Below are positions 10,343-13,104 of a stretch of 64,000 nt of DNA, piece after piece. Location: positions 2,420,001 through 2,484,000 of the forward strand of contig NZ_CP119566.1 of assembly GCF_029277445.1 (NCBI RefSeq), written 5' to 3'. The stretch is from Pararhizobium qamdonense. Lineage in GTDB: Bacteria; Pseudomonadota; Alphaproteobacteria; Rhizobiales; Rhizobiaceae. The position numbers were made by a program, and so were the translations under genes. How positions within the stretch are numbered: the first letter of the stretch is position 1; every line of letters starts with the position of its first letter. The notes under the pieces are model-generated. The model ran no database searches, was not told the DNA's origin, and saw nothing but the letters and a program-made list of their open reading frames with translations.

Positions 10343-10573
10343 GTGGTTTCTCCCGTCTCTTTATTTTTTTGATTCTGGACTGCAGTAGCTACTCCGAAAT
10401 TGGTTTTTATGAGGCACCTCATCTATTAGCATGCCACACATGAAGAAATCGCAACAGTGATTTCTGAGCAGATGCTTTTATTTGTGCCGGATCGGGACGG
10501 TGCAGTTTGCCCAATGCCGGACGTTCTATTGCGGATTGTTCGATATTGGTTTCACATCGCTGCCCGGCAATCT

Positions 10574-10598
10574 GGAACAATCCTGCCTTTCGCGTGTT
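10574..10598 (+). promoter_or_regulatory. EcfG/RpoE2-type promoter for the 10.6-kb small gene
   Basis: GGAAC (10574-10578) is followed after exactly 17 bases by GTT (10596-10598). This is the arrangement of general-stress ECF sigma promoters in Rhizobiales. Transcription would begin near 10605, just before the AAAAGGAG ribosome-binding site at 10613-10620. Confidence 0.65.
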
Positions 10599-10626
10599 TT
10601 CTTTTCGAACGGAAAAGGAGCGCGAA

Positions 10627-10875
10627 ATGGCAAATGTCAAGAATTTGCGGACCGGCTTTACCGGCGAACTCAATGATACCAGCGGCGTGACGGCCAAGGC
10701 GAAAAAAGCGGCAAACTATGTCAGCGACGAAGCCTCTGCTGTCGTTCAGAGCGCGCAGGACCATCCCTCGGCCACCAGTACGGCCCTTCTTGTCTTTGGG
10801 GCTGCGGCATTCGTTGCCGGTTATCTCATCGGTAGCGCCTCAAACGGCGCTTCAACACGAAGAAGTTACTGGTAA
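10627..10875 (+). CDS. Small membrane-anchored stress protein, YqjD/ElaB (DUF883)-like
   Basis: An 82-residue protein. The N-terminal two thirds is a polar, helix-prone segment rich in Lys, Ala and Ser (KAKKAANYVSDEASAVVQSA). It ends in one membrane segment with glycine spacing, AAFVAGYLIGS, and a short basic tail. This layout is that of the YqjD/ElaB/YgaM family, which bind ribosomes at the membrane in E. coli stationary phase; the match here is by architecture only. A strong AAAAGGAG site fixes the ATG at 10627. The EcfG-type promoter just upstream fits a stress-induced role. Confidence 0.75.
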   Translation: MANVKNLRTGFTGELNDTSGVTAKAKKAANYVSDEASAVVQSAQDHPSATSTALLVFGAAAFVAGYLIGSASNGASTRRSYW

Positions 10876-10899
10876 AGGGTGCTTTGCATCAAATTTGAA

Positions 10900-10928
10900 T
10901 TGATTATTGTGCATCGCAGCATTATAGT
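10900..10928 (+). promoter_or_regulatory. Promoter of the anti-SD small RNA
   Basis: TTGATT (10900-10905) and TATAGT (10923-10928) are separated by 17 bases, an ideal sigma-70-like spacing. The predicted start, about seven bases after the -10, falls at 10935, exactly where the first hairpin of the sRNA begins. Confidence 0.6.
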
Positions 10929-10934
10929 CATATT

Positions 10935-11049
10935 TATCGCAGCCATCCACCTCCTCCCGGAAAGCTGCGATCGACCAGCGGTCACCTCCTCCCGACCGTG
11001 GGTCATTTTCAGAAAGCCTGCCGCACCTCCTCCCGCGGCAGGCTTTTTT
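10935..11049 (+). ncRNA. Three-hairpin anti-Shine-Dalgarno sRNA (cuckoo/CcsR-like)
   Basis: Three successive hairpins each expose the same loop, ACCTCCTCCC. Hairpin 1 pairs ATCGCAGC (10936-10943) with GCTGCGAT (10964-10971). Hairpin 2 pairs CGGTC (10979-10983) with GACCG (10994-10998). Hairpin 3 is a terminator with a perfect 12-bp stem, AAAGCCTGCCGC (11013-11024) with GCGGCAGGCTTT (11035-11046), and a T run to 11049. A well-spaced promoter lies immediately upstream. Repeated CCUCCUCCC loops are the mark of the rhizobial cuckoo RNAs and the Rhodobacter CcsR RNAs, which are stress-linked and can base-pair with Shine-Dalgarno-like sequences. Those relatives usually have two such loops in my recollection; three including the terminator loop is notable. 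Confidence 0.85.
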
Positions 11050-11070
11050 CGTTTTGTGCTCTGCCCAAAA

Positions 11071-11096
11071 GGAACCAAATCCGCTATGGTGCCGTT
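11071..11096 (+). promoter_or_regulatory. EcfG/RpoE2-type promoter for the DUF982 gene
   Basis: GGAAC (11071-11075) is followed after 17 bases by CGTT (11093-11096). Transcription would start near 11103, before the CGGAGGA ribosome-binding site (11115-11121). Confidence 0.65.
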
Positions 11097-11128
11097 CTGG
11101 TCTGGCAAGATATTCGGAGGAGACGCTC

Positions 11129-11371
11129 ATGCCAAATGCCAAATGGTCCAATCCCGTCGAGGTCGGATTTGCTCACAAGGGGTCTCAGGTGGTGCTGGGT
11201 CCGTTCGATGCGCTGGCCTGCCTGATGGAAACCTGGCCCGATCTTCGCGGTCCGCGCTACGTCGCCGCGAGAAGCTTTTGCCGCGCCGCAATCGACGGCC
11301 GCAAGTCGGCAGAAGAAGCCCGCGAGGTCTTCATCGCTGCTGCGCAAGAGGCGAAACTCCAGGCGCATTGA
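11129..11371 (+). CDS. DUF982 family protein
   Basis: An 80-residue soluble protein starting MPNAKWSNPVEVGFAHKGSQ. The family pattern follows: a central VLGPFDALACLMETWPD and then YVAARSFCRAAIDGRKSAEEAREVF. DUF982 is a short family found almost only in Rhizobiales, often in several copies, and its function is unknown. A CGGAGGA site lies seven bases before the ATG at 11129. The upstream EcfG-type promoter suggests membership of the general stress regulon. A GCCAGC/GCTGGC hairpin followed by TTTC (11373-11394) begins at the stop codon and may end the transcript. Confidence 0.85.
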   Translation: MPNAKWSNPVEVGFAHKGSQVVLGPFDALACLMETWPDLRGPRYVAARSFCRAAIDGRKSAEEAREVFIAAAQEAKLQAH

Positions 11372-11689
11372 CGCCAGCGAAAAAGCTGGCTTTCAAAATC
11401 GGGCAGAAAAGGGTTGTGCGCGTGTGCGCCCGCCCGTGGGCTCTGTTTTAGCAGATGCTTGGTACCCCTCGTTAAATAGCTTTCAGTATGGGTCTGCGGA
11501 AAGCGGACCAAAACATCGCCGTTTTCTAAAAACTTATCTCCAATGCTGCCGCCAAACTTCTATCTCGCTTTCAAAACCGCTGCGCTGTATAAGGCCGGAA
11601 TTGGTTAGGCTGTTTGAGCCGCGAGATACCCTTCTCCGCTCACGCGCCTTTTTCTCCATCAGATTGTACCGTCTGCCTTGCGCGCGGGG
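11372..11689. other. Intergenic region before dusA
   Basis: About 318 bases. It begins with the short hairpin described for the DUF982 gene (11373-11390). The remainder, including AT-richer stretches near 11500-11600, shows no supported gene or clear promoter motif. Confidence 0.5.
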
Positions 11690-12817: not shown

Positions 12818-13104
12818 TGAGTAGTGAGTGGTTTTTAGCGAATAGTGAGTAGCGAATAGCGAATAGAAGAGATTGCACTATTCGCTATTCACTATTCACT
12901 ATTCACTATTCACTATTCACTATTCACTATTCACTATTCACTATTCACTATTCACTATTCACCATTCACCATTCACTATTCACTATTCACTATTCACTAT
13001 TCACTATTCGCTATTCGCTATTCGCTATTCACTATTCGCTATTCGCTATTCACTACCCACTACCCACTACCCACTACCCACTACCCACTACCCACTACCC
13101 ACTA
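12816..13104. repeat. Heptanucleotide tandem array with inverted arms, copy A
   Basis: A short left arm of units AGTGAGT and AGCGAAT (12816-12866) is followed by a spacer of about ten bases. Then come about 32 units of the complementary type ACTATTC, with variants GCTATTC, ACCATTC and ACTACCC (12877-13104). The left arm is complementary to the start of the right arm, so the transcript can fold into a long hairpin. It fills most of the gap between the convergent dusA and cspA genes and starts within the dusA stop codon. A second array of the same family lies at 34.4 kb. The units are contiguous with no spacers, so it is not CRISPR. Confidence 0.9.

Follow-up and report, generated by a model that had tools for sequence, protein, structure and literature searches.

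An ar14-family small RNA of Pararhizobium qamdonense with three anti-Shine-Dalgarno loops and a candidate PhaR-type operator in its promoter

Cuckoo RNAs have been defined, in work cited in PMC4504443, as RNAs of two to four hairpins whose loop motif is conserved and whose helices are not. The ar14 family (RF02344) is that of NfeR1 of S. meliloti (Smr14C2, SmelC397), for which PMC10746234 describes three anti-Shine-Dalgarno (anti-SD) motifs that act as redundant seeds, their pairing at the translation start silencing SMc03121, SMb20442 and ntrB; the same source describes the NfeR1 promoter as having an NtrC site as well as a box for LsrB, and the LsrB consensus is cited in PMC8844928 as GCAT-N3-TG-N3-T. 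Repeated CCUCCUCCC loops are also found in CcsR1-4 of Rhodobacter sphaeroides (RF02791), which according to PMC8307010 are processed from the transcript of ccaF1, a DUF1127 gene. Accumulation of polyhydroxybutyrate (PHB) is reported in published work to sequester the regulator PhaR (AniA) and thereby relieve repression. The Bradyrhizobium PhaR consensus given in PMC6201568 is the 12-mer TGCRNYGCASMA, and PMC12542648 gives a longer palindrome for S. meliloti PhaR along with gel-shift results for its operators, among them that of mmgR, which is rated there as bound 'Efficient' by His6-PhaR.

The whole stretch of DNA that we analysed, here called the window, is 64 kb long, and the motif CCTCCTCCC occurs in it exactly three times, always on the plus strand (10950, 10985 and 11026) and within a span of 85 nt. 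One hundred shuffles of the window held a mean of 0.71 occurrences, with three or more anywhere in 7 of them, and two occurrences within 100 nt on one strand were seen in 0/300 first-order Markov simulations of the window. When the RNA of 10932-11052 was folded, three hairpins were obtained with exactly ACCUCCUCCC unpaired in each, at an energy of -56 kcal/mol as compared with -29.4 +/- 3.4 for shuffles (z -7.9; 0/200 as low). A preliminary description of this DNA had proposed three hairpins that expose one anti-SD motif, and this is borne out by both the motif count and the fold. The parts of the RNA are as follows.

10932-11050, plus strand: ar14-family sRNA (RF02344), by Rfam match; likely transcript about 10935-11049
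10936-10971, plus strand: hairpin 1, loop ACCUCCUCCC at 10949-10958, by fold; both-side changes in 6 of 11 pairs among orthologues
10973-11004, plus strand: hairpin 2, loop ACCUCCUCCC at 10984-10993, by fold; both-side changes in 3 of 10 pairs
11011-11048, plus strand: hairpin 3, the intrinsic terminator, loop ACCUCCUCCC at 11025-11034, by fold and sequence; 12 of 14 pairs invariant

The third stem has 14 pairs and leads directly into TTTTTT at 11044-11049, so that fold and T-run agree with the earlier proposal that the terminator stem itself bears the third loop. A simple terminator scan listed nothing, because the loop of hairpin 3 is of 10 bases and the scan accepts loops of 3-8. The transcript would be about 115 nt long and start near 10935, ends that we infer from the -10 box and the T-run. 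The only candidates for a gene overlapping the RNA were mechanical ORFs of at least 80 aa, namely two minus-strand frames that begin with TTG and one plus-strand frame that begins with GTG, and these were rejected; Rfam gave no match on the minus strand at gathering cut-offs.

An Rfam scan of the whole window at gathering thresholds (cmscan) returned a single RNA, ar14, at 97.3 bits against 58.8, with the model matched over its full length (positions 1-123 of 123). It is virtually certain that the RNA at 10932-11050 belongs to this family. Under relaxed Rfam limits CcsR1 reached 23.4 bits (cut-off 65.3) and ar7 34.1 bits (cut-off 60), and two further matches to other families were likewise under their cut-offs. 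Where the preliminary description had assigned the RNA to the cuckoo or CcsR RNAs, the ar14 score upholds the cuckoo, anti-SD kind and the CcsR1 score speaks against the other half. Set against the cuckoo definition, which we have from a paper citing it, hairpin number and loop fit, helices 1 and 2 vary and helix 3 is near-invariant. The anti-SD motif in the terminator loop had been thought unusual; the alignment shows that the ar14 consensus itself carries the motif there, and it is therefore the family norm.

Compared by description, the window copy shares with NfeR1 the three CCUCCUCCC-loop hairpins, the terminator hairpin, the full model match and a sigma-70-type promoter; it differs in that it lacks an LsrB-type box, carries a PhaR-type operator between its -35 and -10 boxes and is flanked by a gene for an 82-aa protein and a DUF982 gene. 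With CcsR1-4 it has the repeated loops in common, whereas those RNAs are processed from a longer transcript and the window RNA has its own promoter.

The genome (6.24 Mb, 5 contigs) contains 9 ar14 matches, 7 of which are above cut-off. Four of these seven copies carry a fourth CCTCCTCCC upstream (C2:860295, C2:308891, C3:66840 and C4:207490), and two others form a tandem pair on C1 (2834756 and 2835051). Three of the four-motif copies fold as four clean hairpins, and the best fold of the copy at C4:207490 is without hairpin 1; in hairpin number they are like SmelA099 as described in PMC3927594. They differ from the window copy in having one motif more and the LsrB consensus in all four promoters. 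The exact 33-nt terminator hairpin is common to the window copy and three of the four, and hairpin 1 of the window copy resembles theirs, which suggests that the window copy is related to the four-motif class as a sibling short of one module. Beyond this genome, ar14 was found above cut-off in all 26 genus genomes, in 137 of the 151 family genomes sampled (at E 0.001 in 146) and in 1 of 289 sampled class genomes, that one being the source genome (15 at E 0.001, the 14 others being below cut-off). The exact terminator 33-mer was seen in 18 of the 151 family genomes, representing 13 genera.

The downstream neighbour of the RNA served to locate orthologous loci, taken as the best DUF982 match in each genus genome (n=26, including the source genome and one of the same species). 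The preliminary description had pointed to loss of the loops in related strains as a check, and the outcome was mostly favourable: 20 of the 26 loci keep all three motifs intact upstream of DUF982, one (L074) keeps a single motif intact, its first loop being altered and its third containing Ns, one (L086, genome G004) is decayed and four (L081, L090, L091 and L092) have no motif here, the DUF982 proteins of L090-L092 being just 63-64% identical. What is left at L086 is a stem resembling the terminator and a palindrome resembling a PhaR site; the three CCTCCTCCC loops are lost. Since one genus genome has only a decayed copy and four lack it at this locus, the copy is dispensable. Among 48 named loci with the same protein, 10 had three motifs upstream, 1 (L013) had one motif and 37 had none, the last group including L018 with a DUF982 protein 84% identical. 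The ten three-motif loci are Rhizobium sp., Pararhizobium and Rhizobiales records with DUF982 proteins 83-100% identical (fully so in Rhizobium sp. Root483D2), and they probably overlap with the genus genomes.

In each of the 20 intact orthologues the fold has three hairpins, and the motif is unpaired at no less than 0.86. Covariation was assessed against 500 shuffles in an alignment of these 20 sequences, which has 19 distinct rows and was scored on the 35 pairs of the window-copy structure. It was found that 98.3% of the pair cells are kept and that 9 pairs show changes on both sides; each of these, and the covariation score, was matched by 0/500 shuffles, and 24/500 attained the observed number of further pair types. 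Structures slid along the alignment pair in at most 53%. The double changes are all in helices 1 and 2 and much of the signal comes from the divergent L087-L089, in a set of related, not independent, genomes. We conclude that the structure of the RNA covaries across a conserved locus. The terminator hairpin is near-invariant in stem and loop, while stems 1 and 2 vary.

The genes on either side and the sites ahead of them are listed below.

10574-10598, plus strand: weak EcfG-like site of the upstream gene, GGAAC-N16-TGTT, by pattern match
10627-10875, plus strand: upstream neighbour, 82-aa protein; DUF3185 match at E 0.015, below its cut-off
11071-11096, plus strand: EcfG-like promoter of the DUF982 gene, GGAAC-N17-CGTT, by pattern match
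11129-11371, plus strand: downstream neighbour, DUF982 protein (Pfam PF06169, 5.8e-22)

The 82-aa protein gave no Pfam match at 0.001 and no NCBIfam match at 0.1, and the label 'ElaB/YqjD-like' was a guess by eye that no model supports. Both EcfG-like sites were recognised with what we take to be the EcfG consensus. The strict pattern is present before DUF982 in 14 of the 26 genus genomes and a relaxed one precedes the upstream gene in 22 of 26, so the EcfG-type promoters that had been noted as flanking the RNA are indeed found and conserved; they serve the neighbours and not the RNA.

Upstream of the RNA itself we identified the following elements; promoter distances given below were measured from one reference point in every copy, 18 nt ahead of its first motif.

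10880-10888, plus strand: a second TGC-N2-YGCA element, 30 bp upstream of the one in the spacer; TGC-N2-YGCR in 20/20 orthologues
10900-10905, plus strand: -35 box TTGATT, by promoter scan
10904-10924, plus strand: candidate PhaR/AniA-type operator TTATTGTGCATCGCAGCATTA in the -35/-10 spacer, by likeness to the mmgR operator and to the consensus
10923-10928, plus strand: -10 box TATAGT, spacer 17, by promoter scan

The promoter had been called ideal. It is only fair, since TTGATT-N17-TATAGT scores 9/12 and two minus-strand sites in 10500-11400 equal it (shuffle mean 0.3). In the spacer, 10904-10924 agrees with the operator of S. meliloti mmgR at 18 of 21 positions; elsewhere in the window the best agreement is 14/21. 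The mmgR RNA itself is of a different family, which we take to be alpha-r8. The same 21 bases are the sole full match in the window of the S. meliloti PhaR consensus (expected 0.45; pattern present in 36/100 shuffled windows). Of the 20 orthologues, 17 retain this consensus at -27 to -30, and L075, L083 and L084 miss it. At L086 a match to the palindrome lies at roughly the corresponding place. The Bradyrhizobium 12-mer also matches the window copy, on both strands (10910 plus and 10907 minus) and nowhere else in the window, and is present in 16 of the 20 orthologue promoters, four being without it. Its mere presence proves little, because shuffled windows contain it 1.19 times on average and two or more times in 31/100. 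Genome-wide there are 138 matches of the 12-mer as compared with 39 of the reversed pattern; it is not confined to promoters, since among ten stretches around 12-mer sites the site was inside a long ORF in three (L143, L144 and L146). The PhaR consensus is thus loose, and the case depends on place, conservation and likeness to mmgR. The second element at 10880-10888 does not fit the 12-mer in the window copy. In the window copy and its orthologues TGC-N2-YGCR is found at about -52 (20/20) and about -22 (19/20), 29 to 31 bp apart, the latter falling between the -35 and -10 boxes.

The genome encodes one PHB_acc_N protein. Two Phasin_2 genes were found, each with the 12-mer (at C1:2902435 and at C1:3828947-3828979) about 45-105 nt ahead of its likely start. 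Given the conserved, mmgR-like operator in the spacer and the PhaR-type sites at both phasin genes, we lean towards the view that the window copy would be repressed by PhaR and freed when PHB builds up. The promoter would then point to PHB and carbon status more than to oxidative or heat stress. A limited literature search found no published link between PhaR and ar14; in the two retrieved texts where NfeR1 and AniA co-occur, the passages on AniA concern mmgR.

We also looked for mRNAs that the loops could pair with. Within the window the best hint of a target is the DUF982 gene, whose start region is predicted to form a duplex with the loop of -14.1 kcal/mol, a value equalled by 2% of 3000 random window segments. 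The ntrB gene, a target in S. meliloti, was rejected on its start-region pairing (-5.8 kcal/mol; 53% of random segments equal), and the phasin mRNAs were likewise set aside at an ordinary -6.7 kcal/mol. Perfect GGGAGGAGG sites before an ATG numbered 4 genome-wide against 2 for the reversed pattern, and as one of the 4 is the minus strand of the RNA itself we see no excess of such sites.

From these observations and the described relatives the following mechanism can be proposed. An ar14 ('cuckoo') RNA of about 115 nt would act in trans, its three identical, redundant loops mimicking the 16S anti-Shine-Dalgarno sequence and pairing with the purine-rich ribosome-binding sites of several mRNAs, whose translation would be blocked. 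The terminator hairpin would both end the RNA and supply the third loop. PhaR (AniA) would sit between the -35 and -10 boxes and repress the sigma-70-type promoter; PHB granules would draw PhaR off, and the RNA would therefore be made when carbon is stored. Taken as a whole, a trans-acting anti-SD ar14 RNA that blocks ribosome sites, with a promoter most likely repressed by PhaR, is in our judgement a probable account of the locus. The loose consensus, the orthologues that do not fit it, the lost copies, the poor pairing with ntrB and a northern result from S. meliloti (below) lower the confidence that we place in PhaR control and in any essential role, and leave the family assignment unaffected. 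A broader proposal, which we would give an even chance, is that PhaR directly represses ar14 anti-SD RNAs in the plural, that is the window copy and perhaps the tandem pair and three of the four four-motif paralogues, as a carbon-storage switch of translation; in three of those four the 12-mer overlaps the LsrB consensus.

The same anti-SD RNA could instead be under LsrB/NtrC or other control, as for NfeR1, with the TGC-N2-YGCA elements being remnants of a LysR-type box. The four-motif paralogues lend this some weight, as all four have GCAT-N3-TG-N3-T, 56-57 nt upstream of the reference point, overlapping TGC-N2-YGCA at the same distance. However, within 110 nt upstream the LsrB consensus is absent from the window copy, from all 20 of its orthologues and from both members of the tandem pair, the LsrB box in the form TGCA-N6-GCAT is found in 0/20 orthologues and not in the window copy over that distance, and a site between -35 and -10 that matches the mmgR PhaR operator at 18 of 21 bases is in the place of a repressor; we consider such control unlikely. 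It is improbable that the RNA mainly serves to control its neighbour DUF982, which starts about 80 nt past the RNA end. The ribosome site of that gene, GGAGGAG at 11116-11122, is complementary to the RNA loops, a 7-nt match to each; the -14.1 kcal/mol of its duplex was reached by 4 of 48 long window ORFs, none of which has GGAGGAG before its start (0/48; a rough count with the first ATG as start). Yet the site, CGGAGGAG, is retained at L081 and L086, loci where the RNA is absent or decayed, and related RNAs work in trans according to PMC10746234.

With 7 copies above cut-off in the genome and decay at L086, the window copy might be a functionless duplicate that is silent or decaying, and it could be silent given that, as reported in PMC7143759, only 1 of 6 S. 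meliloti NfeR1 copies was reliably detected by northern blot under the conditions tested; but its loops are invariant and its stems covary in 20 orthologues and the promoter elements are kept, and this reading seems to us distinctly improbable. The repetition of identical loops would also suit a protein sponge, for example for a CcaF1-like DUF1127 RNA-binding protein. The tandem ar14 pair adjoins two DUF1127 genes, and in Rhodobacter CcsR1-4 share a transcript with ccaF1, which encodes an RNA-binding protein (PMC8307010). Against this, the loops of NfeR1 were shown in PMC10746234 to act through their pairing seeds, and we regard a sponge in place of an antisense RNA as highly improbable. Antisense action of an ar14 RNA, most likely under PhaR, is our preferred reading.

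The RNA family and the loop mechanism are known; what is new here is the PhaR-type operator in the promoter and a plausible wiring. The ar14 copies share their loops and would differ in their regulators, with LsrB-type boxes on the four-motif copies and a PhaR-type operator on the window copy, so that several inputs would feed into a single output. This is a suggested answer to why one genome keeps seven copies. Should PhaR control hold, the storage of carbon would have a direct link to the translation of the mRNAs that the RNA targets, and if it holds for several copies, RNAs that block ribosome sites would be released together on carbon storage.

At L142:1157-1575 and 1795-2588 (G000:C1:2834756-2836187) the tandem ar14 pair precedes two small DUF1127 genes, the first of which has a PhaR 12-mer before it. 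A perfect 12-mer stands 147-150 nt upstream of the first member of the pair at 11/11 loci (the source genome and the ten best genus matches). On a comparison by description, the surroundings of this pair (C1:2834756/2835051), which include a DUF1127 gene preceded by a PhaR 12-mer, resemble the neighbourhood of nfeR1 (near SMc02051) more than those of the window copy do. In S. meliloti the PhaR site of SMc02051 is about 0.5 kb from nfeR1, provided that the source papers share coordinates (PMC12542648); PMC12542648 has 0 mentions of SMc02051 as a DUF1127 protein. As ccaF1, co-transcribed with the Rhodobacter CcsR RNAs, is a DUF1127 gene (PMC8307010), the association of these sRNAs with DUF1127 may be old.

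About 40-150 nt before the first ar14 match of the tandem pair (L001 and L057-L066) there is a conserved stretch that comprises the perfect PhaR 12-mer (11/11), a CTATAT or CTATCT box and some 70 conserved bases. Rfam at gathering score gave nothing in this stretch in L142; the stretch may belong to an extended leader or form an RNA of its own. Elsewhere in the window, at 12876-13104 just past the DusA gene, we noted a tandem array of a 7-base unit, with about 26 copies of CACTATT followed by about 8 of CACTACC.
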